The notes beneath the pieces were generated by a model that was given only the letters and a program-made list of their open reading frames with translations, made no database searches and was not told where the DNA came from. From contig NZ_JAQZAN010000014.1 in assembly GCF_028737255.1 (NCBI RefSeq), positions 124,001 through 188,000 of the forward strand: 64,000 nt of DNA. The letters are read 5' to 3'. The stretch is from Actinomycetospora straminea (GTDB lineage Bacteria > Actinomycetota > Actinomycetes > Mycobacteriales > Pseudonocardiaceae). Numbering within the stretch: position 1 is the first letter of the stretch; each line of letters begins with the position of its first letter. Of the stretch, positions 17,789 through 58,072 are shown piece by piece. Both the position numbers and the translations under genes were made by a program.

Positions 17789-17798
17789 CCGGCGGCGC

Positions 17799-19375: not shown

Positions 19376-19710
19376 CGCGCCTCCCCGACGTCCCCGACCC
19401 GGGATGGCTCGTGCCAACCCTCGATCCGGTCAACGGCGCCGAGTGGCCGGTTCCTGATACTCCGATCGGTGGATTGGGGTGGCGAGCACTTCGATCCGGG
19501 AGTGGCCACGCGCTGTGCGATCGCTCTGCGTCACGACTGCCCGAACGGAGCAGTCACCGGCGAGTGGCGGTGACACCGGGTCGAGGCTCGGCGCCTCGGG
19601 GGCGCGGGCGCCCGCTCGCCGTGGCGGGCCCGGGAGGGCTGTCGCCATGACCTGCCCGATCGGAGAGTCCGGCCGTACCGCATGTTCGCCGTTGCCAATA
19701 TTGTGCAACA
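19376..19710. other. Divergent intergenic region between acyltransferase and GNAT gene
   Basis: 335 nt without a convincing gene. It holds a GTCACCG/CGGTGAC hairpin (19553-19574), several GC-rich inverted repeats, and at its right end the AT-rich element 19691-19709 with the GNAT promoter. Confidence 0.6.
19691..19709 (+). promoter_or_regulatory. Leaderless promoter and palindromic operator-like site of the GNAT gene
   Basis: TATTGT at 19699-19704 is a TANNNT -10 box exactly 6 nt before GTG 19711. It is embedded in an almost perfect palindrome: GTTGC and GCAAC arms flank CAATATTG (one extra T on the right). An AT-rich dyad in this GC-rich background is a good candidate repressor site covering the -10 element. 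Confidence 0.45.
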
Positions 19711-28322: not shown

Positions 28323-29594
<1,272 letters not shown>

Positions 29595-38695: not shown

Positions 38696-38697
38696 GC

Positions 38698-40421: not shown

Positions 40422-40607
40422 CTCGCCGCCCGGCCGACCGCAGTCACCCGGTCAGTGGAGCACCGAGCAACCACGCAACGCGACAGGATCTCGATGGAGC
40501 CACCCGATCGGGCGAGTAGGGGCCGATCGTCGCGTCCGAGAGGTGACAAAGCGTGCCAGTCCGCACGGGATCTCCGGCACGATGCCCTGTTTGCCAGGAT
40601 GGGTCGG

Positions 40608-41352: not shown

Positions 41353-42243
41353 GTGCCCCGCCTCTCCCGCCTGCGCCACGCCCTGCACGTCCGCCTCATC
41401 GACGCGGTGCGGCGCGGGACGGCCGAGGCGCTGGACGCCGGGGTGGCGCCGCGACTCGACGCGCTGGAGGCGCGGGCCCGGGAGCACGCCGAGGCGCTCG
41501 CCGTCGTGCGGACGGAGGTCGACGAGCTGCGCGCCGAGCTGCACGCGCGCGAGGTCCGCGACCGCCGCGACATGCTCGCCGCCGGCGAGCGCGACGCGGT
41601 CGCCACGAGCGCCCGGTTCGTCCGCGACGCCATGCCCGGGGCCCGGACCTTCCCGGACCCGAGCGCCACCCTCGCCCACGCCCTCGGGCTCGCCCCGCGC
41701 GGTGGCCTGGCCCTGGAGTTCGGGGTCTACACCGGCACCACGCTCGCCGCGATCGCCGCGGCCCGGGGCGACGGGCTGGTCTACGGGTTCGACTCGTTCC
41801 AGGGCCTGCCCGAGGACTGGCGGGCGGGCTTCGGCGCCGGCACCTTCGGCGACGCGGAGCCGCCGGACGTCCCCGGCGCCGAGCTCGTCGTCGGGTGGTT
41901 CGCCGACACGCTGCCGACCTTCCTGGCGGAGCACCCCGAGCCGGTCGACCTCCTGCACCTCGACGCCGACCTCTACTCCTCGACCGCCACGGTGCTCGAG
42001 CAGATCGGCCCGCGGCTGCGGCCCGGCTCGGTGGTCGTGTTCGACGAGTACCTCAACCACGCGGGCTGGGAGGACGGCGAGCACCGCGCCTGGACCGAGT
42101 TCGTGGCCCGCAGCGGGCTGGGCTTCACCTACGAGGCGTTCACGCACGACAACGAGCAGGTCGTCGTGGTGGTCACAGGGCTGCCCACGCAGGTGCCGTC
42201 GCAGGTGCCACGGGGTACTGGAGTGTCGACCGGCCTCGGCTGA
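41353..42243 (+). CDS. SAM-dependent O-methyltransferase (TylF/CmcI-like)
   Basis: 296-aa class I methyltransferase. Residues ~20-80 are a charged helical, possibly coiled-coil stretch (ALEARAREHAEALAVVRTEV). The catalytic domain has the SAM site LALEFGVYTGTTLAAIAA and, later, LLHLDADLYSSTATVLEQI, the Asp-rich metal site of TylF/CmcI-type sugar or small-molecule O-methyltransferases. PGSVVVFDEYLNHAGWEDGE is another family signature. It opens the second glycan locus, so methylation of a sugar in that glycan is a reasonable guess. GTG 41353 is placed by the family N-terminus; spacing to GGAGG is too short for a normal site. Confidence 0.82.
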   Translation: MPRLSRLRHALHVRLIDAVRRGTAEALDAGVAPRLDALEARAREHAEALAVVRTEVDELRAELHAREVRDRRDMLAAGERDAVATSARFVRDAMPGARTFPDPSATLAHALGLAPRGGLALEFGVYTGTTLAAIAAARGDGLVYGFDSFQGLPEDWRAGFGAGTFGDAEPPDVPGAELVVGWFADTLPTFLAEHPEPVDLLHLDADLYSSTATVLEQIGPRLRPGSVVVFDEYLNHAGWEDGEHRAWTEFVARSGLGFTYEAFTHDNEQVVVVVTGLPTQVPSQVPRGTGVSTGLG

Positions 42244-42365
42244 GCCGATCGGCGGCGCGCGAACCGCCACACAGCGGGCGGAACGGACACCGCGTGTCAC
42301 CGCTTGGTTGCTCCCGGTGGACCCCGGTGTGCGGGACCGCGAGCGGGAAGGGCACAGTCGACGCG

Positions 42366-44471
42366 ATGACCTCCACGGCCGATCGTCGGCTCGGGAGTCG
42401 TGTCGACACCCCGGCCGCCGTCCCGGACCGCCCTGCCGCGGGCAGCCCCGCGGCGCCGGGCCCGGGACGCCAGCCCAGCGACGGGTCGCGGTTCCGGCCC
42501 GAGATCGAGGGCCTGCGCGCCGTCGCGTCGGTGCTGGTCGTCGTCTACCACGTGTGGATCGGCCGCGTGTCCGGCGGCGTCGACGTCTTCTTCGCGCTCA
42601 CCGGCTTCCTCGCGGCCGGGCAGCTCGTGCGCGCGAGCGAGCGCGGCGGGATCGACCTGCTCGCCCAGTGGGGACGGACGCTGCGACGGCTCGTGCCGCC
42701 GGCCGCGGTGGTGCTGGTCGGCACCGTCGTCGCGAGCATCCTCCTCCTGCCCGAGTCGCGGTGGCCCCAGGCGGTCCGCGAGGCGGTGGCGTCCGCGTTC
42801 TTCGTCGAGAACTGGCGGCTGGCCGCCGACGCGGTCGACTACTACGCCTCCCACGACACCGCGAGCGTGGTGCAGCACTTCTGGTCGCTCTCGATCCAGG
42901 GCCAGTTCGCGATCGCGTTCCCGCTGGTGGTCGTCGTGGCGACGCTCGCGGCCCGGCGACGCGGGATCGCCGCGCGTCCAGCCGTCGCGGGCCTGCTCGC
43001 GGTGGTCACCGCGGTCTCCCTGGTCTGGTCGATCACCAGTACCGCTGCTGACCAGACCTACGCCTACTTCGACGCGCTCGCCCGCGTCTGGGAGTTCACC
43101 CTCGGCGGCCTGCTGGCCCTCGGCCTGCACCGGCTGCGTCTGCCGGTGTGGGCCGGCGTCGCGGCCGGCTGGCTGGGGATCGTCGGCCTCGCCGCCTGCG
43201 GGGTGGTGCTCGACGTGGAGGGCGGCTTCCCCGGCTACCTCGCGCTGTGGCCCGTCGCGTGCGCCGCGGCCGTCATCGTCGCCGGGGACACCGACCACCG
43301 CCTGGGTACGACGCGGCTGCTCGCGTCGCGACCGATGCAGTACCTGGGCAGCATCAGCTTCCCCCTCTACCTGTGGCACTGGCCGGTGCTGCTCCTGGCC
43401 TCCGCCGCGTTCCACGTCGAGCAGCCCGGCCCCGTGCTCGGCCTCGCGATCATCGGGACCTCCCTGATGCTCGCCGCGGCGACGCGCCACCTCGTCGAGG
43501 ACCCGGTGCTGCGCCGCGGCCGGCGACGTCCCGGCGTTCTGCGCGACCACCGGGCGGCGGCGGTCGCCCTCGTCCCGGTGCTGGTGCTGGTGCTGGCGTG
43601 GCACGCGGTGACCACCGTGCGCGCGGAGCCCTCGGGCGCCGTCGGCGACGCCGACCACCCCGGGGCGCTGGCCCGGGCTCCCGGCTTCGTCGACCGGGGT
43701 TCGCCCGATGCCGAGCCGATCCCGCCCGCCGTGTCGGCCTACGAGGACTGGGTGCGCTACCGGGACGCGGGCACCGGGTGTGCCGGGGTCCCCGGGCTTG
43801 CCGCCCTCGAGCTGTGCACCTACGTCCCCGCACCCGACCCGGCCGCACGCACGATCGTCGTCGTCGGGGACTCGCACATGCAGCAGTTCCTCCCCGCGGT
43901 CGCCCCGGTCGCCCACGAGCGCGGCTGGCGCGTGCAGACCCTGATCCGGCCGGGGTGCCCGCTGTCGACGACCGCCGAGTCGAACCCCGGCGAGGCCGAC
44001 TGCATCACCTGGAACCAGGAGGCACTCGGCGCGCTCGCCTCCCTGCGCCCGGCCCTCGTCGTCGCCCAGGCGACCCACGACGTCCGCCAGGGCCGCACCG
44101 AGCGCACCCCGCCGGGCATGGTGGAGGCGTGGAACCGGTTGGCGTCCGCGGGCGTGCCGGTGCTGGGGGTGCGGGACAACCCCCGGTTCGGCTACGCCCC
44201 GCCGAGCTGCGTGGACACCTACGGACGCGGCGCGCCGGAGTGCGACGTCCCGCGCAGCGACCTCTACCCCGCGGACCCGGCCCCACCGGGCGGCGCCCCC
44301 TCGACGATGACGGTGCTCGACCTCTCCGACAGCATCTGCGAGCCCACCGTGTGCCCGCCGGAGATCGGTCGCGTCATGGTCTACCTCGACGACAACCACC
44401 TCACCGCCACCTTCACGGCGTCGCTGGCCCCGGTGGTCGGCCCGCGCATCGCCGCCCTCGTCGGGCCGTGA
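42366..44471 (+). CDS. OafA-like O-acyltransferase with C-terminal SGNH domain
   Basis: 701 aa. After a ~40-residue Pro-rich N-terminus, the acyltransferase-3 membrane domain starts with FRPEIEGLRAVASVLVVVYH and contains GGVDVFFALTGFLAAGQLV, VQHFWSLSIQGQFAIAFPLV, YLGSISFPLYLWHWPVLLLA and the closing HLVEDPVLR. Residues ~450-700 form an extracytoplasmic SGNH domain: nucleophile in TIVVVGDSHMQQFLPAV and the catalytic Asp/His pair in YLDDNHLTATF. Such two-domain enzymes O-acetylate or O-succinylate exported glycans. Placed just before the second GlfT2-like gene, it likely decorates that glycan. Confidence 0.9.
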   Translation: MTSTADRRLGSRVDTPAAVPDRPAAGSPAAPGPGRQPSDGSRFRPEIEGLRAVASVLVVVYHVWIGRVSGGVDVFFALTGFLAAGQLVRASERGGIDLLAQWGRTLRRLVPPAAVVLVGTVVASILLLPESRWPQAVREAVASAFFVENWRLAADAVDYYASHDTASVVQHFWSLSIQGQFAIAFPLVVVVATLAARRRGIAARPAVAGLLAVVTAVSLVWSITSTAADQTYAYFDALARVWEFTLGGLLALGLHRLRLPVWAGVAAGWLGIVGLAACGVVLDVEGGFPGYLALWPVACAAAVIVAGDTDHRLGTTRLLASRPMQYLGSISFPLYLWHWPVLLLASAAFHVEQPGPVLGLAIIGTSLMLAAATRHLVEDPVLRRGRRRPGVLRDHRAAAVALVPVLVLVLAWHAVTTVRAEPSGAVGDADHPGALARAPGFVDRGSPDAEPIPPAVSAYEDWVRYRDAGTGCAGVPGLAALELCTYVPAPDPAARTIVVVGDSHMQQFLPAVAPVAHERGWRVQTLIRPGCPLSTTAESNPGEADCITWNQEALGALASLRPALVVAQATHDVRQGRTERTPPGMVEAWNRLASAGVPVLGVRDNPRFGYAPPSCVDTYGRGAPECDVPRSDLYPADPAPPGGAPSTMTVLDLSDSICEPTVCPPEIGRVMVYLDDNHLTATFTASLAPVVGPRIAALVGP

Positions 44472-44482
44472 CCCGCGCCTCC

Positions 44483-44488
44483 TACCCT
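44483..44488 (+). promoter_or_regulatory. -10 box TACCCT ahead of the second GlfT2-like gene
   Basis: TACCCT lies 56 nt before ATG 44545; with a start near 44495 the mRNA would have a ~50-nt leader containing GGGAG about 10 nt before the ATG. Unlike most promoters in this window it is not leaderless. Confidence 0.4.
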
Positions 44489-44544
44489 GGAGACCGGTCC
44501 GCCCGGACCCCCGCCGCCGTCCCGAGCACTGGGAGCACGCCAGC

Positions 44545-46425
44545 ATGACCGACGTCGCCGCCCGCACCACCGTCCGTGACACCACGGATGCTCGGGGATC
44601 GGGGCGCCTCGTCGTCGCCCGTGGGCTCTTCGCCGGCCCCGTCCCGGAGGTGCCCGCCGAGCTCTACGTGGAGGTGCTGCGGGGACGGGCCGACCGCCGG
44701 CGGGACCACGTGCGCCTCGGCGCGGACACCCACGTCAGCACCAACACCTACTTCGGCCGCCTCCCCGCGAGCTACTGGCAGCGCTGGACCACGGCCCGCG
44801 AGGTCCGTTTCGAGGCGCGCACCCACGGCGCCGGCCGGGTGCTGCTGCGGGCGTCGGACACCAACGGCGTCCCGCGCACCCTCGCGGTGCACGAGGCGGA
44901 CGGCGGGGACCTCGCGCTGGCCGCGCCGCTCGACCGCTTCCTCGACGGCGGCGGGTTGTGGGTCGAGGTCGTCACCGACGACGACGAGCTGCTGCTGCAC
45001 GACGCCCGCTGGACGGTGGCCGCGCCCGCCACCGACCGCGGCGCCTCGGTGGTCGTGTGCACCCACAACCGCGCCGACGACTGCATCGCCACCCTGCGGG
45101 CGCTCACCGCCGAGCCGGACGTCGTCGCGCTGCTCGACGCCGTGGTCGTCGTCGACCAGGGCACCGACCGGATCGACACGCGCGACGGGTTCGCCGCCGT
45201 GGCCGACCGGCTCGGCGCGCGCTTCCGGTACCTCCCCCAGCCCAACCTCGGCGGCTCCGGCGGCTTCACCCGCGGCCTCTACGAGGTCGTGGAGCACGGC
45301 GGGCGCGCCGACGTCGACGTCCTGTTCATGGACGACGACATCCGCTGCGAGCCCGAGGTGGTCGTGCGCCTCGCCGCGTTCGGGCGGTGCGTCGCCGACC
45401 CGACGATCGTCGGTGCGCAGATGCTCAACCTGCTGCACCCAACCCAGGTCCTCGCTGGCGCCGAGTACGCGGTGCTCCCCGACCTCACCAACGGCCACGT
45501 GAGCCCCGGGGCGGTCGGCGAGTCGGACGTGACGGCGTTCTTCCCCGACGGCACGAAGAACGTGCAGGACCGCCGGGTCGACGCCGGTTACACGGGATGG
45601 TGGTCCTGCCTGATCCCCGCGGAGCTGGTGCGACGGGCGGGCTACCCGCTCCCGCTGTTCTTCCAATGGGACGACGTCGAGTACTGCTACCGCGCCCGCG
45701 CCCACGGGGTCCCCACGGTGACCCTGCCCGGCGCCGGCGTGTGGCACGCCGACTTCCCGTGGAAGGACTGGGACGACTGGCACCGGTACTTCAACCTGCG
45801 CAACGCCATGATCACCGCGGCGCTGCACTCGCCGTTCCCCGTCCGTCACATCACGGGCGTGCTCACCGACCTGCTCGGGCGCTACCTCGTCTCCATGAAC
45901 TACGGGCTGGCCGCGACGCTCACCCGGGCCGTCGAGGACTTCCTGGCCGGCCCCGCGGTGGTCGACGACGGCGGCGTCGCCGCGGTCGCGGCCGTGCGGG
46001 GCCTGCGCGCCGCGCACGGCGAGACGATCGCGCACCCGGCCACCGACGCCCCCGGTTTCGCGCCCACGGACATGGAGATCGTGCGCAGCGGTCCGGAACC
46101 GACGCGCACCGGGCTGGTGATGGCCAAGCGCGCCGCGCAGCAGGTCCTCGGGCGCACCCCGTTCCACGCGGGGCTCGTGGGCGCCGGCGAGGCCCACTGG
46201 TGGCACGTCTCGTTGTTCGACCGGGTCGCCGTCACCGACGCCGGCCAGGGCGGTGTCCGCCTGCGCCGCCGCGACCCCGCGGCACTGCGCGCGCTGGGCC
46301 GCGACGGGGCCCGCGTGCTCTGGCGGTTCGCCCGCGAGGGCGGCGCGGCCGCGCAGCGCTGGCGCGAGGCGGCTCCCACGTTGACGGCGCCGGACAACTG
46401 GCGCCGACTCTTCGGCACCGGCTGA
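44545..46425 (+). CDS. Second GlfT2-like galactofuranosyltransferase
   Basis: 626-aa GT2 enzyme with full GlfT2 architecture: N-terminal beta domain (NTYFGRLPASYWQRWTTARE matches the FNAFPAAYWRRW segment of GlfT2), catalytic start ASVVVCTHNRADDC, PNLGGSGGFTRGLYEVV, FMDDDIRCEPEV (Asp263-265), and GVWHADFPWKDWDDWHRYFN corresponding to WHMSFVEKDDTSDWQAYFH. A C-terminal helical domain of ~200 aa follows. It is clearly a paralogue, not a duplicate, of the GlfT2 at 25080; the region between the DDD motif and WHADF diverges (NGHVSPGAVGESDVTAFF). It most likely polymerises or extends a different galactofuranan, or uses a different furanose donor. Precedes a GT-C gene by 11 nt. Confidence 0.9.
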   Translation: MTDVAARTTVRDTTDARGSGRLVVARGLFAGPVPEVPAELYVEVLRGRADRRRDHVRLGADTHVSTNTYFGRLPASYWQRWTTAREVRFEARTHGAGRVLLRASDTNGVPRTLAVHEADGGDLALAAPLDRFLDGGGLWVEVVTDDDELLLHDARWTVAAPATDRGASVVVCTHNRADDCIATLRALTAEPDVVALLDAVVVVDQGTDRIDTRDGFAAVADRLGARFRYLPQPNLGGSGGFTRGLYEVVEHGGRADVDVLFMDDDIRCEPEVVVRLAAFGRCVADPTIVGAQMLNLLHPTQVLAGAEYAVLPDLTNGHVSPGAVGESDVTAFFPDGTKNVQDRRVDAGYTGWWSCLIPAELVRRAGYPLPLFFQWDDVEYCYRARAHGVPTVTLPGAGVWHADFPWKDWDDWHRYFNLRNAMITAALHSPFPVRHITGVLTDLLGRYLVSMNYGLAATLTRAVEDFLAGPAVVDDGGVAAVAAVRGLRAAHGETIAHPATDAPGFAPTDMEIVRSGPEPTRTGLVMAKRAAQQVLGRTPFHAGLVGAGEAHWWHVSLFDRVAVTDAGQGGVRLRRRDPAALRALGRDGARVLWRFAREGGAAAQRWREAAPTLTAPDNWRRLFGTG

Positions 46426-46436
46426 GCGCGGCGGCC

Positions 46437-47969
46437 GTGGGGAGCACGGCTCCGACGCCCGAGGCGGGCCTCGCGGCCTCGGACCCGCCACCCCGCCGAC
46501 GCGGGCCCCGACCCTCCGACGTCCTCGCCGCCGCGTACGGCGCGGCGATGGGCGCCCTGCTGTCCGTCGTCGCGGGCCGGGCGCTGCCCGACGACGCGAT
46601 GATCACGTTGTCCTACGCCCGCAACCTCGCCGAGCGCGGCGAGTGGGCCCTCACCCCGGGCGTGGCGGCGAACACGGCGACGAGCCCGCTGAACGTCTGG
46701 CTCGAGGCCGGGCTCGTGGTCGTGACCGGCAGGCCGGAGCTGTCGGTCGGGATCCTGCTCGCGCTCACGGTCGGCCTGCTCGCCCTCTGCCTGCACCGCC
46801 AGCACGGTGCACCGGTGTGCGGGGCCGGGGTCCTGCTGCTGGTCGCGAACCCCTTCCTCGCCAGCGCCACCGGTCTCGAGGTGTACCTGACGGCCCTGGC
46901 GATCGTGGCCCTGGTGTGGGCCGCGAGCGCCGGGCACTTCCTCGTGCTCGGGATCGTGGGCGGCCTCGCGGTGCTCACCCGTCCCGACCTCGCCATCGTG
47001 GTGCTCGCGGTAGTCGTCCTCGCCGCCGCACGGCACCGACGGGTCGGGGGCGCGCTCCTCGCGCTGGCGCTCGCCGGTATCGTCGCCGCGCCGTGGCACG
47101 TCTGGTCCTGGCTCCGGTTCGGGTCCGCGGTCCCCGACACCCTGGCGGTGAAGGCGGACGCCGGTGACTCCTGGGGCGGCTACACCTACGGGAACGGGAT
47201 CGGCCACTACCTCGGGTACTGGCCGGAGCCGACCCGGCTCGTCGTCGCCGGTCTGGCCGTGGGGCTCGTGGCCTGGCTCGCCTGCCTGGTCCAGCTGGTC
47301 CGGCACCGTCACCTCGGGCCGCGCGGGTGGTCCGGCCTCGCGTTCGGCGTGGCCGGCGGCGCGCACTACGCCGCGATGTCGGCCCTCGGTGGCGCGCCGT
47401 TCTTCTGGTACTACACGCCCGCGGTGGTGGGGGCCGCGCTGGCCACGGTGGTCGTCGCCGACGCCGCGCTCCGGCCGGTCCGGCCGCTGCGCTCCCACAC
47501 GCCGGTGCGCATCGCCGCCGGAGCCCTCGCGGGCCTCGCCGTGGTCGGTATCGCCGGCGCCACGCTCGTCCAGGACGCGGAGCGCGGCGTCCCCTGGTCC
47601 GGGTTCGCGCCCGTCCGCGTCAACTGGGCCACCCCGGCGCAGTACGAAGCGATCGCGGCCGCCCTGCCGCCGGGCTCAACGGTCGAGTCCCCCGGCGAAA
47701 TCGGCTACCTCGCATTCCACTGCCGCTGCCGGGTGGTCGACTACTTCTCCGACCCCGGGCGCATGGCGCCCGCCATCGACCGCTTCCGTGCCGACCACGA
47801 CGGCCCGATCTGGCGGCTCAACTATCTCCACCGGCGACCGCAGGCACCGGTCCCGGCGGCCTACCGACTGGTCTACGAGGCCGCGCCGCCCGACGGCCCC
47901 GGCCAGTGGCCCGTGACGTTCCCCGGCGACCGTGTCAAGAGGATGCGCCTCGAGGCCCTGGCCCCCTGA
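46437..47969 (+). CDS. GT-C membrane glycosyltransferase (AftB-like)
   Basis: 510 aa. The N-terminal catalytic loop after TM1 reads PDDAMITLSYARNLAERGEW, with Asp52-Asp53 as the GT-C acidic pair, followed by NTATSPLNVWLEAGL as in AftB-type polyprenyl-phosphate-sugar transferases. About ten TM helices follow, with VLTRPDLAIVVLAV matching the ARPE-type motif of the superfamily. The C-terminal ~110 residues form a small extracytoplasmic domain with CRCRVVDYFSDPG. Donor is presumably decaprenyl-phosphoarabinose or a decaprenyl-phosphohexose. GTG 46437, 11 nt after the GlfT2-like gene. Converges with a GT4 gene, 14 nt apart. Confidence 0.75.
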   Translation: MGSTAPTPEAGLAASDPPPRRRGPRPSDVLAAAYGAAMGALLSVVAGRALPDDAMITLSYARNLAERGEWALTPGVAANTATSPLNVWLEAGLVVVTGRPELSVGILLALTVGLLALCLHRQHGAPVCGAGVLLLVANPFLASATGLEVYLTALAIVALVWAASAGHFLVLGIVGGLAVLTRPDLAIVVLAVVVLAAARHRRVGGALLALALAGIVAAPWHVWSWLRFGSAVPDTLAVKADAGDSWGGYTYGNGIGHYLGYWPEPTRLVVAGLAVGLVAWLACLVQLVRHRHLGPRGWSGLAFGVAGGAHYAAMSALGGAPFFWYYTPAVVGAALATVVVADAALRPVRPLRSHTPVRIAAGALAGLAVVGIAGATLVQDAERGVPWSGFAPVRVNWATPAQYEAIAAALPPGSTVESPGEIGYLAFHCRCRVVDYFSDPGRMAPAIDRFRADHDGPIWRLNYLHRRPQAPVPAAYRLVYEAAPPDGPGQWPVTFPGDRVKRMRLEALAP

Positions 47970-47983
47970 CGATCAGCGCACCG

Positions 47984-49129: not shown

Positions 49130-49248
49130 CGCCGTCCTCCACCCTTCCTCGACGTCGGCTCGTCACAGGTGCGCCACGAGCTGCGGGCCGGTCCCGCCCG
49201 GCCACTGTAAAGGCCCGACCGCTCCGACTTCTCACAGGCTGTAGTTGC

Positions 49249-49254
49249 TAGCGT
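49249..49254 (+). promoter_or_regulatory. -10 box TAGCGT ahead of Emb-4
   Basis: TAGCGT would start transcription near 49261, giving a ~28-nt leader with GGAG (49277-49280) 8 nt before GTG 49289. The identical hexamer precedes Emb-5. Confidence 0.5.
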
Positions 49255-49288
49255 GGCGTGCCCGCCGCCCGACCCCGGAGTTCACCTG

Positions 49289-52200
49289 GTGACCGCGACG
49301 TCCCGTCCCTCGTCGGCCGCCGACGACCCGGAGGACACCGGCGACGGCGCCGCGCCCGCCGGGGACACGGCCTCCGACGGGCGCGCCGACGGGACCGGCC
49401 CGTTCGCGCGCGGCTGGTTCGGGCGCGCCCGGGTCGCCTGGTCGACGGTCGCCACCGTCGCCGGGATCGTGGCGCTCGTGTGCGCGGCCCTGCTGCCGCT
49501 GCTCCCGGTCAGCGTGTCGCAGCCCGAGGTCGCCTGGCCGCTCGACCCGGCGGACCCGCGGCCCACCGCGCTGCAGTTGACCACCCAGCGCCCGCTCGCC
49601 CTCGACGTCCGGACCGACTGCGACGCCGCCCGCGCCGCGGCGTCGGCCGGGACGGGCCGGACGCTGGGGGCGCCGGGCGACGGGGTCCTGCTCGCGACCC
49701 TGCCGCCCGTGTCGGGCGACGCCGGTGTCGGCCTGCGGGCGGTGGTGGTCGGCGACCGGCTCACCGTCCTGTCGCGCGGCATCCCCTTGGTGGACGGCCC
49801 GCTGCCCGCCGGGCCCTGCACGATCGGGATCGCGGGCGACCTCACCGGGATGAGCGTGATCGTCGACGGGCGCCTCGTCGGCCGGGCCGGGCCCGAGGCC
49901 GTGCCCGACGTCGACGCGCTGGTGTCCTCGGTACCGCCCTCGCCGCCGGGGGCCGGCGAGCGCGGCGCCGGCCTGGCCGTCCGCCTCACGGTCGACGACC
50001 AGTTCGCCACCTCGCCGACCGCGGTCAAGACCGCGGTGACGCTGCTCCTGCTCGGGGCGGTCACCGTCGGGCTCGTCGGGCTCCACGAGCGGGACCGGGC
50101 CGCACGCGCCGCGCGGTGGGAGACCGCCCGAGACCGGCCTCCCCGGCCCCGACCCCGCGTCGTCGACGGCGTCGTGCCCCTGCTGCTGGCCCTCTGGACC
50201 GTCATCGGCCCGATGACCGACGACGACGGCTACTACGCCGCGATGGCGGCGAACGTCCCGTACTCGGGCTACGTCGCGAACTACTACCAGCTCTACAACC
50301 AGGGGTTCACGCCGTTCACCTGGATCTACTACGTCCTGTCGTGGTGGCAGGGCGTGGCCGGTGTGAGCCCGGTGGTCCAGCGGGTGCCGGCGCTGCTGCT
50401 CGGCCTCGCCAGCTGGTTCCTCCTGCGGGCCTACGCCGCCCGCGCCCTGCCCGCGGGCACCGGGCGGGGGCGGGCGGTCGCCCTGCACGCCGTGCTCGCG
50501 CTCGCGTTCGTCGCCTGGTGGCTGCCTTTCGACATGGGCGTGCGCGCCGAGGCCGTCGTCGCCACGAGCGTCATCGCGAGCATGCTGTGCCTGGCGGTGG
50601 CGGTGGAACGCGACCGCTGGGCGCTCGCCGGGCTCGCCGTGGCCGTGGCGTCCTTCGGCGCGACCGCGGCACCGACCGGGTTCGTCGCGCTGGCCCCGCT
50701 GCTCGCGTGTCTCCCGCGGGTCTGGCGCACACTGATCGCCCCGGCGGGACCCTGGTACCGCCGGCTCGGCGTCTTCGTCGCCCTCGTGGGCCCCGGCGCG
50801 CTGGTCGGGTTCGCCGCCTTCGTCGACGGCTCGCTGCGCGACTTCGCCCGCGGCCAGCAGATCTTCCTCGGGCTGCAGGACCAGGAGTCCTGGTACACCG
50901 AGATCGTCCGCTGGAGCTACCTGCTCGTCGACGGCGGACCGATGGGCACGTACGCCAAGCGCTTCCCCGTCCTGCTCGGGCTCCTCGCGCTGGCCTGCCT
51001 CCTCGCGCTCCTCGCCGTCGCGCGTGGCCGGGGCCTGCGCCTGCCACCCCGGCTCACCGCTGCGGCGTGGACGTTCCTCCTGGGGTTCGCGCTGCTCTGG
51101 CCCACCCCCAGCAAGTGGACCCACCACTTCGGGACCCTCGCGACGGTCGGCGCCCTGGTCTTCGCTCTGGCCGTCGTCGGTGTCCCCGTCCTGCTGCGCG
51201 AGGCCGCGACGGACGCCGCCGACCCGCCGCGGTGGCTCCCCGCACTGCCCGTGGCCGTCGGGGTCGGGCTGCTCGTGGCCGTGCTCGCCGGCCTCTCCGG
51301 GCACGGCGAGAACGCGTGGCCGTACTCCTGGATGCTCGGGCTGCCCGACCCTTTCGAGGTGCCGCGGGTCGCGGTCTTCTCCTTCGACCAGCCCGCCTGG
51401 TGGCTGCTCGGCGGGCTCGTGCTCGCCGGCGTCGCCGTGGTCGCGACGCGGGGGCGGTGGCGGGCGTGGCGGCCGGCGGTCCCGGCCGTCGCGGTGGCCC
51501 TGATGGCCACGGGAGCGCTGCTCGTGTCGACGGTGTACCTCGTCGGCGGCTTCGTGCTCGCCACGGTGCGGACCGCCGACGGCTACTCGCCGTGGGTGGA
51601 CGCCGTGCGCGACCCGCTCGCGCGCGACTGCGGCGCGTCGGCCCAGATCGAGGTCCTCGACCCGGTCACCGCCCGGCCCCTCGCGGCCCGCCCGGACCTG
51701 CCGTCCCCGGTGCCCGGGGCGAGCCCGGACGACCCGCCCGTGTTCGTCCCCGGCGGCTGGTTCCCGTCCAGCCCGCCCCCCACTCCCGGGATCGCGGCCT
51801 GGGGGAGCTTCGTGCCGCCGGCGACGGGTCCCGGGGTCGCGGCGGGTGCCGACGGGACGGTGGGGGCCTTCGCGTCGCCCTGGTACGCGATCCCCGAGCG
51901 AGCGGGTGCCGCGATGACCGCCTCGGTCTCGGGGCGCACCGGCGGTGGCAACGGGCTGCGCGTCGAGTACGGGTTCCCGGCGGGCGGCGGCGTCGTCCCG
52001 GTCGGGGTGCAGGCGCTCGGGCTCGGCGAGGACGGCGAGCCGGTCGACTCGGTGGTCTGGCGCTCCCTGCTGCTCGAGGGACCGAACGGACCCCCTCCGG
52101 GCGCCACGGTCATGCGCCTCGTCGCCGACGACACCTCGATCGCACGGGGCGGCTGGCTCGCCGTCACCGCCCCGACCGTCCAGCGGTGGCAGACCCTGCA

Positions 52201-52603
52201 GCAGTACGCGCGGCCGGGCGAGGCGACGGCGGTGAGCTGGCAGTACGCGTTCCTCTTCCCCTGCCTGCGCAAGCCGGTGCAGGCGTTCGGGATCAACGAG
52301 CCGGCGACCCTCGGCGTGGTGTGGGGCGATCAGCCGTTGGCGTACCGCCTCGACGGGATCTGGCAGACCGGGCGGGGTGGTCTGTTCGCCCAGAGCCTGC
52401 GCGACGCGCAGGTCACCCAGCTCGCCACGCAGCTGCGGGTGGCCCCGGACGCGGTCTCCGGACAGGTCTACCGGCTCGACCCGCTCGTGCCGGTCGACGC
52501 GGCCTACCGCCTCGAGCCCCGCCGGATCGTGGTGGGGGGCTGGGAGCCCGGACCGAACACGACGATGTCGGTGCCGCTCGAGGAGCGGGCCGGCGAGCAG
52601 TAG
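49289..52603 (+). CDS. Arabinosyltransferase, Emb family, divergent subtype (Emb-4)
   Basis: 1104-aa GT-C enzyme of the Emb family. TM1 ~45-70. The catalytic motif is MTDDDGYYAAMAANVPYSGY (Asp311-313) followed by VANYYQLYNQGFTPFTWIYY, where Emb-1 has NYYRWFNVPEAPFGW. The core retains APTGFVALAPLL and PSKWTHHFG; the C-terminal carbohydrate-binding domain has FLFPCLRKPV. It shares its signature with Emb-5 rather than with Emb-1 to -3, so these two form a separate subtype. Transcription starts from a TAGCGT box; GTG 49289 has GGAG 8 nt upstream, preferred to GTG 49253 which overlaps that box. Divergent from the GT4 gene. Confidence 0.92.
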   Translation: MTATSRPSSAADDPEDTGDGAAPAGDTASDGRADGTGPFARGWFGRARVAWSTVATVAGIVALVCAALLPLLPVSVSQPEVAWPLDPADPRPTALQLTTQRPLALDVRTDCDAARAAASAGTGRTLGAPGDGVLLATLPPVSGDAGVGLRAVVVGDRLTVLSRGIPLVDGPLPAGPCTIGIAGDLTGMSVIVDGRLVGRAGPEAVPDVDALVSSVPPSPPGAGERGAGLAVRLTVDDQFATSPTAVKTAVTLLLLGAVTVGLVGLHERDRAARAARWETARDRPPRPRPRVVDGVVPLLLALWTVIGPMTDDDGYYAAMAANVPYSGYVANYYQLYNQGFTPFTWIYYVLSWWQGVAGVSPVVQRVPALLLGLASWFLLRAYAARALPAGTGRGRAVALHAVLALAFVAWWLPFDMGVRAEAVVATSVIASMLCLAVAVERDRWALAGLAVAVASFGATAAPTGFVALAPLLACLPRVWRTLIAPAGPWYRRLGVFVALVGPGALVGFAAFVDGSLRDFARGQQIFLGLQDQESWYTEIVRWSYLLVDGGPMGTYAKRFPVLLGLLALACLLALLAVARGRGLRLPPRLTAAAWTFLLGFALLWPTPSKWTHHFGTLATVGALVFALAVVGVPVLLREAATDAADPPRWLPALPVAVGVGLLVAVLAGLSGHGENAWPYSWMLGLPDPFEVPRVAVFSFDQPAWWLLGGLVLAGVAVVATRGRWRAWRPAVPAVAVALMATGALLVSTVYLVGGFVLATVRTADGYSPWVDAVRDPLARDCGASAQIEVLDPVTARPLAARPDLPSPVPGASPDDPPVFVPGGWFPSSPPPTPGIAAWGSFVPPATGPGVAAGADGTVGAFASPWYAIPERAGAAMTASVSGRTGGGNGLRVEYGFPAGGGVVPVGVQALGLGEDGEPVDSVVWRSLLLEGPNGPPPGATVMRLVADDTSIARGGWLAVTAPTVQRWQTLQQYARPGEATAVSWQYAFLFPCLRKPVQAFGINEPATLGVVWGDQPLAYRLDGIWQTGRGGLFAQSLRDAQVTQLATQLRVAPDAVSGQVYRLDPLVPVDAAYRLEPRRIVVGGWEPGPNTTMSVPLEERAGEQ

Positions 52604-52610
52604 CGGCGCC

Positions 52611-53306
52611 TCAGGGGCGGCGCAGCACGAACACCGAGGACTCCCCCGTGCCCGGGCGCAGGAACAGCCGCCCGCTGAGGAACTGCGCGAGGCACGGGCC
52701 GGCGCGCAGGGCGGCGTCGACCAGCTTCGGCAGGCGGGAGTAGGGCACGTCCCAGAGCCCGTCGGTGCCCTCGCGCTCGACGACGAAGCCCCGCGCGGTG
52801 AGGAAGGCGCGCCACTCGTCGTGGGTCTTGAGGTTGATGTGGGTCGGGTCCTCGAAGCCCATCCAGCCGTCGCCCGCCAGGCGTCGCCCGCGGCCCGCGG
52901 GGTCGGGCATGACGACGAGCGCGTGGCCGCCGGGGCGCAGGATCCGGCGCCAGGTCGCGAGCACCTCGTCGGCGGTCCCGTCGTCGAGGTGCTCCAGCAC
53001 GTGGATGGCGGTCAGCGCGCCGAACTCGCCGTCGCCGAGCTCGCGCACGTCGGTGGTGACCAGGCATCCCGGCGCCGTGGCGCGGGCGGTCGTCGCCGAG
53101 TACTCGGAGATCTCGAACCCGGCGGCGGTGCCGAGTGCCGACAGGCGCCGCACCAGGTGCCCCGTCCCGCAGCCGAAGTCGAGGTACGGACCGCCGTCGG
53201 CGTAGCGCTGCACGAGGCGCGTGTACCAGCGCAGCGCCGGACGGTCGTCCGCCTGGCCGTTCGCGAGGTAGTACTGCTCGTCGTACTCGGTGCTCTCGCT
53301 GCTCAC
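52611..53306 (-). CDS. Class I SAM-dependent methyltransferase
   Basis: 231 aa. SAM-binding motif I is YLDFGCGTGHLVRRL, the acidic residue of motif II is in AGFEISEYSA, and IHVLEHLDDGTADEVLATW is the post-II helix seen in Methyltransf_11/23 proteins. RILRPGGHALVVMPDP is motif III. The opening EYDEQYYLANG is common in sugar or lipid-linked-glycan methyltransferases of polysaccharide loci. GTG 53306 overlaps the flippase stop by 4 nt, so both are one transcription unit, lying between the two Emb genes on the opposite strand. Confidence 0.88.
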   Translation of the reverse strand: MSSESTEYDEQYYLANGQADDRPALRWYTRLVQRYADGGPYLDFGCGTGHLVRRLSALGTAAGFEISEYSATTARATAPGCLVTTDVRELGDGEFGALTAIHVLEHLDDGTADEVLATWRRILRPGGHALVVMPDPAGRGRRLAGDGWMGFEDPTHINLKTHDEWRAFLTARGFVVEREGTDGLWDVPYSRLPKLVDAALRAGPCLAQFLSGRLFLRPGTGESSVFVLRRP

Positions 53307-54532
53307 GTCTCGCTCCGGGTCTCGGGACGGCGGCGCGAGGCCGCCAGGATCAGGGCGCTCACGCCGGCGCCCACCGCGCTGCCCACCGCGAACGCCACCT
53401 CGCCGCCGAGGATCGCGCCGGGCACCAGCCAGAACGCGACGCCGGCGGCCAGCAGCGCCGCGATCCAGCTCAGCGCGACGTCGCGGTGGCGCCCGCGGGC
53501 CACGTGCACCTGGGTGACGACGACGAGGCCGACGTGCGCGAGCACCCCGAGCACGATGATCGCGAGGTCCAGGCCGCCGATGGCGTAGGCGTCACCGAAG
53601 ATCAGCGAGACGAGCCGCGGGCCGATCCACCAGGCGAGCGGGGCGCCGATCGCGGCCAGGGCACCCAGCACGGCCGTGCCCTTCACGAGGAGCACCAGCA
53701 CCTCGCGGCGCCGGCCGGCGGCGATGAGGCGGGTCAGCGTCGGCACGACGGCCGACTGCAGCGGCACGACCATCGACAGCGGCGCCCGGGCCAGGGTGAA
53801 GGCGGCGACGAAGACACCCGCGGCGGCGGTCTCGCCCCCGTCGGCGGCCTGCGCCACCACCAGTACCGGCAGCCCGTTGAGCAGCAGCTGCGCGCACGCG
53901 GAACCCACCAGCAGCGGCAGCGCGTCGCGCACGAGCCCGCGCACGGTCGCGCCGGGGACGCGCCACGCCGAGGGCGGCGAGCTCCACGCCACCGCGCGCC
54001 GCCAGGCACCGGGCAGCTGCGGCACGTGCGCGAGCGCGATGGCCAGCACGAGCGCCCAGCAGAACGCCGCCGCGTCCGCGCCCTGCACGAAGAAGAGCCC
54101 GACGGCGAGGGCGAGACGGATCAGGGAGTCGAGCACCATCACCGCCGCGTGCCGCACGAGGCGGTCGGTGCCGATGAGGGTGCCGCGCACGAGGAACTGG
54201 GCGGCCGAGACGACGCTCAGCGCCACCAGCGCGAGCAGGACCGAGACGTGGTCGTCGAGGGCGCGGTAGAGGATCGGCAGCGCCCCGCCCAGCACGACCA
54301 GGGCGATGGCGGTCAGCACGCCGGCGGCGCCGGAGGCGGCCCGCAGCAGGGCCCGGCGATCGCCCGGGATGGGGAGGCGCCGGGCCAGCTCCTGCTCCAG
54401 CGGCAGGAAGGCGCCGAAGCCCAGGACGAGCGCCAGGGCCCAGAACGACCCGAAGGTCGCGTACTCGACGGGCGAGAGCGCGCGGGCCACGACGGCCAGG
54501 TAGACGTTGACGACGATGCCGGAGAGCAGCAC
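53303..54532 (-). CDS. Wzx-like polysaccharide flippase (MOP superfamily)
   Basis: At least 409 aa with 12 or so TM helices spaced over the whole length. SPVEYATFGSFWALALVLGFG then AFLPLEQELARRL is the typical first cytoplasmic/TM2 block of MATE/Wzx flippases, and GTLIGTDRLVRHAAVMVLDS the middle repeat. It would move a polyprenyl-linked sugar to the outer face. GTG 54532 is the first standard start but cuts TM1 and lacks a Shine-Dalgarno. A CTG at 54595 has GAGGAG 9 nt upstream and adds 21 residues (SDRAPGAVGARRLVGAAGLG), completing TM1; it may be the true start. A TATCCT box lies at 54638-54633. Confidence 0.85.
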   Translation of the reverse strand: MLLSGIVVNVYLAVVARALSPVEYATFGSFWALALVLGFGAFLPLEQELARRLPIPGDRRALLRAASGAAGVLTAIALVVLGGALPILYRALDDHVSVLLALVALSVVSAAQFLVRGTLIGTDRLVRHAAVMVLDSLIRLALAVGLFFVQGADAAAFCWALVLAIALAHVPQLPGAWRRAVAWSSPPSAWRVPGATVRGLVRDALPLLVGSACAQLLLNGLPVLVVAQAADGGETAAAGVFVAAFTLARAPLSMVVPLQSAVVPTLTRLIAAGRRREVLVLLVKGTAVLGALAAIGAPLAWWIGPRLVSLIFGDAYAIGGLDLAIIVLGVLAHVGLVVVTQVHVARGRHRDVALSWIAALLAAGVAFWLVPGAILGGEVAFAVGSAVGAGVSALILAASRRRPETRSET

Positions 54533-54713
54533 GCCCAGACCGGCCGCACCGACCAGTCTCCTCGCGCCGACGGCGCCCGGCGCGCGATCGCTCAGGGCGA
54601 GCGTCTCCTCACTCGGTGCTGCGATGCCGACGAGGATAACGGGGACCGGGCCGGAAACCGCGCAGGACCCGACCGGCCCGTCCCCGGTCGAGGGCGCGCG
54701 TACGCCCGGCGGT

Positions 54714-54719
54714 TAGCGT
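54714..54719 (+). promoter_or_regulatory. -10 box TAGCGT ahead of Emb-5
   Basis: Same hexamer as at Emb-4. Start near 54726 gives a ~29-nt leader with GGGAG (54741-54745) 9 nt before GTG 54755. The matching promoter design suggests co-regulation of the two genes. Confidence 0.5.
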
Positions 54720-54754
54720 GGTGACCGACGGGACGACGACGGGAGCGGCGGCTG

Positions 54755-57700
54755 GTGGGCACGAACGCTCCGCCGGCCGTGCCTGCCGACCCGTCCGCCG
54801 GCCCGCCCGAGCGGACCAGCTCGTTCGCGTGGGCCGTCACCGTCGTGGCGGGCGCCATCGCGCTGGTCGGGGCGTTGGTCCTGCCGTTCGCGCCCGTCGC
54901 CGTCAACACCTCCGAGGTGCGCTGGCCCGTCGACCCGCGCGACACCACGCCGACGATGCTCATGCTCACGGCCTACGAGCCGGCGGAGCTCGACGTGCGC
55001 TTCAGCTGCCGGGCCGCCCGGTCGGCCGCGGCGACCCCCGACGGCTTCGTGCTGTCCACGATGGGACCGCGGTCGCCGGACGCCGCGGACGAGGCGCTCA
55101 CGGTGGTGGCACGGGGTGACGCCGTCACCGTGCGCAGCGGTGGGTCCGTGCTCTTCGCGGGACCCCTGCCGCCGGGCGACTGCCGGTTCGTGGTCGCGGG
55201 CGACGCCGCCGCGGTCCGGGTGGTGCTCGACGGCGTCGTCGTGTCGACCACGGGGTCGCGCCTGCCCGTCCCCGACCCCGAGGAGGACGCGCCGGACGAG
55301 GAGGAGCCGCTCCCCGACCGCGAGCCGATCGCGAAGCCGATCTCCCCGCTGCCCGAGGTCGACGCCCTGCGGACCTCGGTCCCGCCGCTGCCCGACGCCG
55401 GCGTCGACGACCTGTCCGTGCGCCTGGTGCTGGACACCGCGTTCGACCACACGCCGTCAGCGGCCAAGTCCGTCCTCGTCGTGGTGATCGTGATGGCCCT
55501 CGTCGCCGGCGCGGTGGCCCTCCCGGCCGGGCGCGCGCCCCCGGAGTGGGGCGCCCGGGGGCTCGGGCGCCTCGTGCGGTGGCTCCGGCGCCGGGCCACG
55601 CGCACCGTGGCCCGTGCCCGGACCCTGCGGCCCCGGGTCGTCGACGTCCTCGTCCCGGCGGTCCTGCTCGCCTGGCTGTTCCTCGCGCCGATCACCGACG
55701 ACGACGGCTACTACGGCGCGATGGCGGCCAACGTCCCGTTCTCCGGGTACCTGCCGAACTACTACCAGCTCTACGACCAGGGCTACACGCCCTTCTCGTG
55801 GCCCTACTACGCGCTCTCCTGGTGGCAGACGACCGTCGGCACCGCGCCGGTGCTCGTGCGGATCCCGGCCCTGGTCCTGGGTCTGGGCACCTGGTGGCTG
55901 GCGCGGGCGTACGTAGCCCGGACACCGCTGGGCGGCACCGGGCGGTGGACGTCCGCCGCGGCCCGGACGGGCCTGGCCGCGGCCTTCCTCGCCGGGTTCC
56001 TGGCCTACGACATGGGCTCGCGGCCGGAGCCGGTCGTCATGTTCTTCGCCCTGGCCGCGCTCGTCGCCGTCGCCGAGGGGCTCGAACGGCGCCGGCTCGC
56101 CCTGCTCGGCCTCGCCGTCGGGGCCGCCTCGGCCGGGCTCATGGCCGCCCCGACGGGGTTCATCGCGCTGGCCCCGCTGGTCGCCGCCGCACCCGCGACC
56201 TGGCGGCTGGTGCGGGCACGGTCGGCGAGCTGGTGGGCGGTGGCCGGCTGCTGGATCGTCGTGCTCGCACCGCTCGCGGTGGGGAGCCTCCTGGGCTTCG
56301 CCGACGGCGCCTACCGCGACTTCGTCCGCTCGCAGGAGATCTTCGCGCCGATCCAGCGGGCGCAGACGTGGTACCAGGAGCTCCTGCGCTACAACGCGCT
56401 GCTCGACACCGCCTCGCACCACGGGTCCTACGCGCGACGCGCCCTGATCCTCGCCTGCCTGCTGGCGCTCGTGTGGTTCCTGGTGCTCGTCGTCGCGACG
56501 CGGGCCCGAGGGCTCGCGGTGCCCGCGCGCCTCCCCCTCGTCGGCTGGAGCACGCTGCTCGCCTTCGTCCTGCTGCTGCCGACGCCGAGCAAGCCGACCC
56601 ACCACCTCGGCGCCTTCGCCGGACTGGGTGCGGTGTTCCTCGCGCTGCTCCTGGTGGTCGGCCCCCGGCTCGTCGCCGCCCTCGACCGGGAGCACCGGGT
56701 GCCCCAGCCCGCGCTGGTCGCGGTCGCCCTGTCCGCGGTCGCGACGGCTGCCCTGGTCGGCCACGGACGTGCCATGTGGCCGTACGGCTGGGGCCTCGGC
56801 ATGCCGTCGTACGGCGACTACCCCTCGGTCCGCGGGATCGAGTTCGACCAGCCGCTGTGGTGGGCGCTCGCGCTCGTGCTGATCACCGTGGTGGTCGTGC
56901 TGGTCGGCCGGGCGCCCTGGCGACGGCTCGCGCTCGCGGTGTCGGTGCCCGTGCTCGTCGTCGCCCTCCTCGCCGCGGTGACGGTGTGGACGGTCGGCGA
57001 CGTCACCCGGGCCGCGATCCGCACCGCCGACGGCTGGTCGCCACAGATCGACGGGTGGACCGACCCCGTCGGCGACCGCTGTGGGCTGGGCGGGCAGATG
57101 GACGTCCTCGATCCGGCCGGCGGCCAGGCCCTCGCCCCGGTGCCGCTACCGGGCGGTGCGCCGTCGGAACCCCTGGTGCCGCTCGACGCCCCCGACGCCC
57201 CGGCACCGGAGACCCGCACCGAGCCGTTCCTGCCCGGCGCCTTCTTCCCGCCGAGCCCACCCCCGCGCGGGCTGCCCGGGGGAACGCCGGTGTGGGGCAG
57301 CTTCCTCGTGCCGGAGGACGGCGCCACGGCCGACGCCCGCACCGGTGGGTTCGCGACCGGGTGGTACCGCACGCCGCCGCCCGCCGAGGCGGGGATGACC
57401 GTCGCCGTCGCCGGCCGCACCGCCCGCGATGTCTCCCTGCGCGTGGAGTACGGACGCGAGACCCCCGACGGCGTCGTGCCCCTCGACACCCACCGGCTCG
57501 CCGAGGACGACCCCGAGTCGGTCACCTGGCGGACCGTGGCACTGGTCGACGAGGCCGCCCCGCCGCCCGGGGCGAACGCCGTCCGGCTCCTCGCCGACGA
57601 CGCCAGCACCTCCACCGGGGGCTGGTCGGCGTTCTCCGCCCCCGTCGCGCACCGGTGGGTGCCCCTGCCCGACTACCTGCCGGCCGGCGGCGCGGTCGGG

Positions 57701-58072
57701 ATCGCCTGGCAGATCCGGACCTACTTCCCGTGCCTGCGCCAGCCGCGGCAACAGGCGGGGATCACCGAGCCGGCCGTCGCGGCGATCGGATACGGCGACA
57801 CCGTCGAGGCCGCCCGCGCCGACTGGATGTTCAACCCGGCGCGGGGCGGCCTGCTCGGCCACGCCGAGCGCGAGGGCCCGGGCACCCTGCTGACCACGCG
57901 GGTCCGCGACGTGGGGGACGCCGTCGACGACGTGTACCTCGTCGACCTGCGTCAGCCCTATCCGTCCGACGGCTACGTCCTGACCCGCGACCGGCGGGTC
58001 GAATCGGGCCTGTCGGCGCCGGGCGTCGACGCCGCGGACCTCAGGACTCCCCCTCCGCCAGCTGCCGGATGA
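54755..58072 (+). CDS. Arabinosyltransferase, Emb family, divergent subtype (Emb-5)
   Basis: 1105-aa GT-C enzyme, close paralogue of Emb-4. Catalytic motif ITDDDGYYGAMAANVPFSGY (Asp315-317) then LPNYYQLYDQGYTPFSWPYY. The usual PSKWTHHFG motif is altered to PSKPTHHLG. APTGFIALAPLV and TYFPCLRQPR are kept. The extracytoplasmic N-terminal domain has an acidic insertion (DPEEDAPDEEEPLPDREP) at ~170-190 absent from Emb-4. Together with Emb-4 it probably adds arabinose in a distinct linkage or to a distinct acceptor. GTG 54755. Its last 32 nt overlap the convergent aconitase gene. Confidence 0.92.
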   Translation: MGTNAPPAVPADPSAGPPERTSSFAWAVTVVAGAIALVGALVLPFAPVAVNTSEVRWPVDPRDTTPTMLMLTAYEPAELDVRFSCRAARSAAATPDGFVLSTMGPRSPDAADEALTVVARGDAVTVRSGGSVLFAGPLPPGDCRFVVAGDAAAVRVVLDGVVVSTTGSRLPVPDPEEDAPDEEEPLPDREPIAKPISPLPEVDALRTSVPPLPDAGVDDLSVRLVLDTAFDHTPSAAKSVLVVVIVMALVAGAVALPAGRAPPEWGARGLGRLVRWLRRRATRTVARARTLRPRVVDVLVPAVLLAWLFLAPITDDDGYYGAMAANVPFSGYLPNYYQLYDQGYTPFSWPYYALSWWQTTVGTAPVLVRIPALVLGLGTWWLARAYVARTPLGGTGRWTSAAARTGLAAAFLAGFLAYDMGSRPEPVVMFFALAALVAVAEGLERRRLALLGLAVGAASAGLMAAPTGFIALAPLVAAAPATWRLVRARSASWWAVAGCWIVVLAPLAVGSLLGFADGAYRDFVRSQEIFAPIQRAQTWYQELLRYNALLDTASHHGSYARRALILACLLALVWFLVLVVATRARGLAVPARLPLVGWSTLLAFVLLLPTPSKPTHHLGAFAGLGAVFLALLLVVGPRLVAALDREHRVPQPALVAVALSAVATAALVGHGRAMWPYGWGLGMPSYGDYPSVRGIEFDQPLWWALALVLITVVVVLVGRAPWRRLALAVSVPVLVVALLAAVTVWTVGDVTRAAIRTADGWSPQIDGWTDPVGDRCGLGGQMDVLDPAGGQALAPVPLPGGAPSEPLVPLDAPDAPAPETRTEPFLPGAFFPPSPPPRGLPGGTPVWGSFLVPEDGATADARTGGFATGWYRTPPPAEAGMTVAVAGRTARDVSLRVEYGRETPDGVVPLDTHRLAEDDPESVTWRTVALVDEAAPPPGANAVRLLADDASTSTGGWSAFSAPVAHRWVPLPDYLPAGGAVGIAWQIRTYFPCLRQPRQQAGITEPAVAAIGYGDTVEAARADWMFNPARGGLLGHAEREGPGTLLTTRVRDVGDAVDDVYLVDLRQPYPSDGYVLTRDRRVESGLSAPGVDAADLRTPPPPAAG

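Follow-up and report, generated by a model that had tools for sequence, protein, structure and literature searches.

A candidate second arabinogalactan-type assembly locus in Actinomycetospora, with a fixed core and variable genes between

Gene content of the locus

The window analysed here is a 64,000-nucleotide stretch of the 6.29 Mb genome of Actinomycetospora straminea (contig NZ_JAQZAN010000014.1, positions 124,001 to 188,000). At positions 41353–58072, downstream of the classical arabinogalactan genes, it carries nine genes that an earlier note had described as a second assembly locus for an arabinose- and galactofuranose-containing polymer. All nine are present, their open frames are intact and the motifs reported for them are right; family matches were obtained for seven (Pfam) and fold matches for the other two (AlphaFold models).

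Two of the genes encode putative arabinofuranosyltransferases, which we call Emb4 (49289–52603, plus strand) and Emb5 (54755–58072, plus strand; PF04602 E 7.1e-71). Both have all three Emb domains (PF04602, PF14896 and PF17689) above the curated cut-off and keep the catalytic residues, and Emb5 matches the EmbC structure 7bvh (E 3.5e-45), the DDGY stretch being part of the alignment. The claim that these proteins form a separate subtype is borne out by a tree in which Emb proteins of this type (37 rows) and classical Emb proteins (41 rows) lie on the two sides of a branch with a Shimodaira–Hasegawa-like approximate likelihood ratio test (SH-aLRT) value of 100. The classical rows are all from Pseudonocardiaceae, with no mycobacterial row, and labels were assigned by best match before the tree was built; the branch support, rather than the labelling, is what counts as evidence. 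A sixth Emb of the genome, on another contig (C52:24243-25499), groups with the EmbB side, where its branch is long.

Divergent from emb5, across an intergenic region (54533–54754) that gives a start-to-start distance of 223 bp, is a gene for a putative flippase (53303–54532, minus strand). The protein matched no Pfam family over cut-off, even at a threshold of E 1. Its AlphaFold model (predicted local distance difference test score, pLDDT, 81; 12 helices) matches the lipid III flippase WzxE with a template modelling score (TM-score) of 0.70–0.71 (0.71 for 9g9p) and the MATE transporter 6fhz with 0.65, and a MATE protein ranks first by E-value in Foldseek. Because the model matches both MATE transporters and WzxE, it places the protein in the MOP superfamily at the level of fold; the label 'Wzx-like' is kept here in that sense, strict Wzx identity going further than the fold evidence. 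The flippase gene overlaps a same-strand gene for an S-adenosylmethionine (SAM)-dependent methyltransferase (52611–53306, minus strand; PF13489, Methyltransf_23), and a family 4 glycosyltransferase, GT4, is encoded at 47984–49129 (minus strand; PF13692 and PF13439). We refer to the Emb, flippase and GT4 genes together as the module.

The galactan side of the locus is represented by a paralogue of the galactofuranosyltransferase GlfT2, here named GlfT2b (44545–46425, plus strand), whose 13 closest loci in named genomes are all from Actinomycetospora (68–88% identity). GlfT2b carries the N-terminal, GT2 and C-terminal domains of GlfT2 (PF17994, Glft2_N; PF13641; PF19320, GlfT2_domain3) and matches the solved GlfT2 structure 4fix (E 5.8e-98, residues 48–620 covered). 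The DDD, WDD and WH columns, which we take to be the catalytic motifs of GlfT2, are kept in all 88 aligned GlfT2b rows with the exception of one W. In line with the earlier note, the protein stands outside ordinary GlfT2: in a 124-row tree a single branch (SH-aLRT 100) splits 70 GlfT2b rows from 54 GlfT2 rows, and GlfT2b is not placed among the GlfT2 proteins of the wall galactan cluster. That tree was made by a quick method, with long branches flagged by the program, row labels assigned by best match and 25 of 149 rows thinned out beforehand.

The remaining three genes are candidates for decoration. The first encodes a TylF-type sugar O-methyltransferase (41353–42243, plus strand) that passes the family cut-off (PF05711, 48.4 bits against 23; also PF13578, Methyltransf_24). 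The second encodes a membrane O-acyltransferase with an SGNH domain (42366–44471, plus strand; PF01757, Acyl_transf_3, and PF19040). It had been described as an OafA/SGNH acyltransferase, and both domains are there; its nearest NCBIfam model is SucT (NF058601), at 350.7 bits and below the cut-off of 1275. The third is a GT-C glycosyltransferase (46437–47969, plus strand) that matched no Pfam family over cut-off, even at E 1, and whose AlphaFold model (pLDDT 86) matches ALG12 (9s6t, E 4.1e-6), AftB (9dlh, E 5.1e-6, TM-score 0.55) and ArnT.

A fixed core and variable genes within the genus

We compared the window with the corresponding regions of 14 other Actinomycetospora genomes, 15 regions in all; three genomes were left out: in G227 and G258 the contigs were short, and G250, 83% complete, gave no GlfT2b match. 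GlfT2b was found in 17 of the 18 genomes of the genus. In every one of the 15 regions, GlfT2b, the GT4, an Emb5-type protein, the SAM methyltransferase and the MOP flippase are encoded in one block of up to ~25 kb, and the methyltransferase and flippase genes share a strand and are at most 96 bp apart. The co-occurrence expected from the earlier note therefore holds for this core. The divergent emb5–flippase arrangement within 300 bp occurs in only 3/15 regions, the window (223 bp) among them; in A. callitridis the distance is 222 bp. Emb5 is the fixed Emb copy, and Emb4 is a strain-variable copy present in 8/15 loci.

The genes between the core members differ by strain, and the nine genes do not travel as a joint set. 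A TylF relative is found in 10 of the 14 other regions (11/15 with the window included), with a 59-bit fragment in one more. Counts for the other variable genes come from a simple GC-frame gene caller and are lower bounds: OafA/SucT-like acyltransferases in at least 10/15 loci, the GT-C, with an invariant DD, in at least 7/15, a second SAM methyltransferase in at least 12/15 and a homologue of AftA in at least 7/15. The variable part also includes DUF6541, GT2, DUF2304 and FkbM methyltransferase genes (these and AftA identified by Pfam on one representative each), and further MOP proteins in some loci. A fixed core with variable genes between its members is the pattern of a serotype locus.

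AftA is the enzyme that primes galactan with arabinose, and its homologue, whose identity was Pfam-checked on one member, is at most two genes away from GlfT2b in six of the loci that have it. At one such locus (genome G042, L136:6279-8150) the homologue has both domains and adjoins GlfT2b. A search with AftA_N in 18 genomes gave matches over cut-off in two and below cut-off in two more, with no match in the genome of the window. Two Pseudonocardia genomes (G004 and G104) were likewise without a match, and the presence of AftA was set aside as a non-discriminating test for or against a wall acceptor.

The classical arabinogalactan genes lie upstream in the same window, with an ABC-2 membrane protein (488–1684), a GT2 (2484–3410), three Emb proteins (between 3500 and 14002), GlfT2 (25080–27848) and Glf (28323–29534). 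A further membrane acyltransferase (PF01757) is encoded within this region, at 16481–19417. The upstream flank of the second locus carries a LysX-type fusion of lysyl-tRNA synthetase and phosphatidylglycerol lysyltransferase (35204–39382), which flanks the locus in 8/15 regions and was not found there in the other seven. The frame at 39519–41267 was rejected as one gene, being split in the GC-frame plot; its minus-strand part is a DMT transporter (NCBIfam). A sigma-70 scan of the locus gave no promoter-like site, and a terminator scan gave three terminator-like sites against 1.4 ± 1.2 expected.

The module and GlfT2b outside the genus

Searched in 120 genomes of the family, the flippase profile matched 12 at E <= 1e-15 (10 at E <= 1e-90) and the GT4 profile 15 at E <= 1e-60 (10 at E <= 1e-160). 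The ten genomes at the stricter thresholds are the same ten (five Actinomycetospora, one Pseudonocardia, one Lentzea and three of the genus g23), and none of the five remaining GT4 genomes is among the flippase matches. The chance of this overlap would be 8.6e-15 if genomes were independent, although there are in fact about four independent cases; two of the genus names (for g5 and g8) were assigned from coordinates shared with L092 and L068. The module is thus found in three further genera of Pseudonocardiaceae and also in Geodermatophilaceae, where all seven genomes with a GT4 match at E <= 3e-170 have the flippase adjoining; three others with a weaker GT4 (~1e-156) have no flippase within 20 kb, and neither Emb nor GlfT2 in the genome. 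The assignment to Geodermatophilaceae comes from genome G848, which contains the Blastococcus locus L087 at 100%. In five rows compared outside the genus, GT4 identity is 58–65%. A Pseudonocardia metagenome-assembled genome (L089) holds an Emb of module type together with a fragment of the flippase at its edge.

Geometry is kept in these distant relatives. Outside the genus, emb and the flippase gene point away from each other in 12/12 loci, with 178–460 bp between their starts, and the GT4 gene follows the flippase gene after a gap of 2–138 bp (distances taken from the ends of tblastn matches). A UbiA gene lies within ~4 kb of emb in 9/12 of the loci and a PAP2 gene in 7/12; two of the three loci without UbiA may end at the edge of the fetched stretch, and a Pfam check was made in two loci (L179 and L182). 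The UbiA matches are at superfamily level only. The window locus itself is without UbiA or PAP2. A Pseudonocardia locus (L178) additionally contains GlfT2b, a relative of the SAM methyltransferase and DprE1/DprE2-like genes identified at domain level.

Exactly one Emb is encoded in 10/12 of the outside genomes, and in 11/12 every Emb belongs to the module, G826 having a second Emb elsewhere; these counts derive from a PF04602 search in 15 chosen genomes, which are not an unbiased sample of the spread of Emb subtypes. Canonical GlfT2 is present in all 12, so this arabinan machinery keeps company with galactan; in Geodermatophilaceae it lies ~35 kb or less from the module in five of seven genomes and on other contigs in two. 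GlfT2b is absent from 11/12. The paralogues thus scatter in part among related genomes, as the earlier note had said would count against it: they are together within Actinomycetospora and separate outside it. It is the Emb–flippase–GT4 module, rather than GlfT2, that forms the core of the locus.

Several weaker relatives were seen. In five genomes (L223–L227) a UbiA-like gene (34–39% identical) is found at most 5 kb from a weaker GT4 relative, with no flippase or Emb near. Weaker flippase-type MOP relatives (93–185 bits, 29 genomes) were not counted as module; two of them (L230 and L231) belong to a different cassette, GT2–MOP–GT2–DUF2304, that also occurs in the variable part of some Actinomycetospora loci (L044, A. 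soli) and is common to these loci and genomes of other families. The idea of an AftD gene next to the flippase homologue of two probable Mycobacterium genomes was rejected: at L229 that homologue has an M1 peptidase and an AMP-binding/PP-binding protein for neighbours.

GlfT2b has its own distribution, across Pseudonocardiaceae, Nocardiaceae, Geodermatophilaceae and one member of the Streptosporangiaceae. It is the only GlfT2-type match in 12/12 Saccharomonospora and 21/25 Amycolatopsis genomes, by the criterion of a GlfT2b-grade match (E <= 3e-206) with no other match at E <= 1e-30, ordinary GlfT2 scoring about 1e-100 in the same search; rows were counted by eye with four candidates scored per genome, and some genomes are 82–91% complete. 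The two genera (g25 and g16) were named from coordinates shared with L052, L054, L056 and L059 and with L072 and L055, respectively. The walls of both genera contain arabinose and galactose, and GlfT2b is therefore probably able to make wall galactan alone; by the same reasoning, its presence alone implies no second polymer. In loci of Lentzea and Saccharothrix, GlfT2b adjoins Glf and GlfT2; in those of Pseudonocardia it lies within the emb cluster. Among Geodermatophilaceae, 11/76 genomes give a GlfT2b-grade match (E <= 1e-180), and none of the module genomes identified in this work is one of these. A TylF-type methyltransferase lies near GlfT2b in a Blastococcus, four Rhodococcus, an Amycolatopsis and an Actinokineospora (L087, L088, L094, L095, L100–L102), hinting at methylated galactofuranose. 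In a record under the name Rhodococcus rhodnii (L082), GlfT2b groups inside Kibdelosporangium, by transfer or because the record is mislabelled. In searches of the open-access literature, no title or abstract opening among the entries read concerned GlfT2b or the Emb/flippase–GT4 module.

Proposed function and alternative readings

The genes and their families, the conserved catalytic motifs, the conservation and the geometry are direct observations. On these sequence comparisons we tentatively propose that the region is a second arabinogalactan-type assembly locus, fixed in its core in Actinomycetospora and variable between the core genes. The best reading of its product, although somewhat short of probable, is a predicted second arabinogalactan-type polymer carrying decorations, or else a side chain on the polymer of the wall. 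The note's corresponding suggestion is supported in part: the conserved, distinct arabinose/galactofuranose locus stands, its core is no longer GlfT2, and that the polymer is a separate one we infer, as we do each reaction, the order of steps and the difference of the product from the main wall arabinogalactan.

It is established that GlfT2 polymerizes galactofuranose, that Emb proteins use decaprenyl-phosphoarabinose and that MOP proteins flip polyprenyl-linked sugars. The locus would join two older units, GlfT2b (usually with TylF) and the Emb/flippase–GT4 module. GlfT2b would polymerize galactofuranose from UDP-galactofuranose in the cytoplasm, where the TylF-type O-methyltransferase would also act, and the GT4 may add a sugar to, make or prime a lipid-linked acceptor. 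The MOP protein would carry the lipid-linked product (or an arabinose donor) outward, Emb4 and Emb5 would add arabinofuranose outside from decaprenyl-phosphoarabinose, and the GT-C, the SucT-like acyltransferase and the methyltransferases could finish the product with strain-specific decoration. The two literature anchors are that MOP-type flippases move polyprenyl-linked sugars (PMC11127046) and that SucT succinylates arabinogalactan and lipoarabinomannan (PMC10503756).

Several points weigh against this proposal. Outside the genus GlfT2b is widely found without the flippase, just as the module mostly lacks GlfT2b, and the module is rare, with a flippase match beyond 1e-60 in 2/394 genomes of the class (G000, which is the window genome, and G684). 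Short lipid-linked sugars, rather than long galactans, are the usual cargo of MOP flippases. Pfam and NCBIfam recognized neither a Wzy-like polymerase nor an initiating transferase belonging to the locus among its proteins, although sister loci contain proteins that match no family. GlfT2b, as the only GlfT2-type match in Saccharomonospora and most Amycolatopsis and as a member of glf or emb clusters elsewhere, may only help to make the one wall galactan. Lastly, the only AftA_N match of genome G042 is in its locus, consistent with its acting in the main polymer.

These last two observations lead to the possibility, on balance rather unlikely, that there is one polymer only and the locus decorates or extends the ordinary wall arabinogalactan. 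With similar reserve, one can imagine GlfT2b adding another galactan stretch or linkage, Emb4 and Emb5 extra arabinan, and the methyl and acyl groups serving as surface tags. The positions of GlfT2b beside Glf and GlfT2 or inside emb clusters agree with this, as do the modification of arabinogalactan by SucT (PMC10503756) and the variation by genus of the linkage and side groups of wall galactan, for example in Nocardia nova (PMC12794489). A single polymer accords less well with a locus that has a flippase and GT4 of its own besides the classical ABC-2 protein and GT2, and with a module that in other taxa holds the only Emb genes.

The cargo of the flippase can also be read differently. The MOP protein might flip decaprenyl-phosphoarabinose itself, the module being an Emb-based three-component pentofuranose system; we regard this as unlikely, and it is compatible with either view of the polymer. 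UbiA and PAP2 would then make the lipid-linked pentose, the MOP protein flip it and Emb transfer it, a sequence of steps that we hold to be equally doubtful. The frequent nearness of UbiA and PAP2 to Emb outside the genus, the DprE1/DprE2-like genes that take their place in the Pseudonocardia locus and the first rank of a MATE protein in Foldseek all point this way, and the weaker GT4 beside UbiA-like genes suggests that the GT4 itself may belong with UbiA-made lipids. A precedent is offered by the Citrobacter youngae O1/O2 systems, in which a UbiA-type synthase, a MATE/MOP flippase and a GT-C handle an exported lipid-linked pentofuranose (Kelly et al. 2024; PMC11127046); the module resembles these, but its transferase is an Emb protein rather than GT136, it always comes with a GT4, its phosphatase is PAP2, and the window locus has neither UbiA nor PAP2. 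The coupling of the MOP protein with a GT4 that closely follows it in 12/12 outside loci speaks for a glycan cargo, since a donor flippase would not need a GT4; moreover, by TM-score the model is closer to WzxE than to MATE, and Actinomycetospora presumably already supplies the donor for its classical Emb proteins. Both cargoes fit a second polymer as well as a side chain of wall arabinogalactan. That the genes are chance neighbours without joint function seems very improbable: gene content between the core members changes freely from strain to strain, and GlfT2b and the module part outside the genus, but the core is fixed in 15/15 regions and the geometry of Emb, flippase and GT4 is the same in 12/12 loci of other genera.

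Compared with the mycobacterial and corynebacterial arabinogalactan pathway (GlfT1, GlfT2, Wzm–Wzt, AftA, EmbA/B/C, Rv3806c, Rv3807c and DprE1/2), the locus has the GlfT2 and Emb families in common, and the UbiA and PAP2 genes near Emb in its relatives and the AftA homologues of some loci are further likenesses; it differs in its separate GlfT2 and Emb lineages, in a MOP flippase and GT4 tied to Emb, and in its methyltransferases and variable gene content. Wzx/Wzy serotype loci share the conserved core, the variable glycosyltransferases, the acyl- and methyltransferases and the MOP flippase, whereas here no Wzy or initiating transferase was recognized and the furanose transferases are of wall type. 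The acyltransferase resembles SucT of mycobacterial arabinogalactan and lipoarabinomannan in its AT3 and SGNH domains, with a match over residues 34–697 of 723 model positions, but scores far below the family cut-off.

A bolder synthesis, which we consider more speculative still than a donor flippase, is that flippase, GT4 and Emb form a self-contained actinobacterial arabinosylation system with a further Emb subtype and the MOP protein as dedicated donor flippase, accounting for the only Emb of the cell in several taxa and, in Actinomycetospora, joined with GlfT2b in a serotype-like locus for a second, variable arabinogalactan.

The module ties one Emb subtype, sometimes the only Emb of the genome, to one MOP flippase, and UbiA and PAP2 genes are often close by. 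The module may help to show how arabinose building blocks cross the membrane, and makes that question testable. If the proposal of a second assembly locus is true, this genus-wide variable locus would represent serotype-like variation in an arabinogalactan-type polymer.

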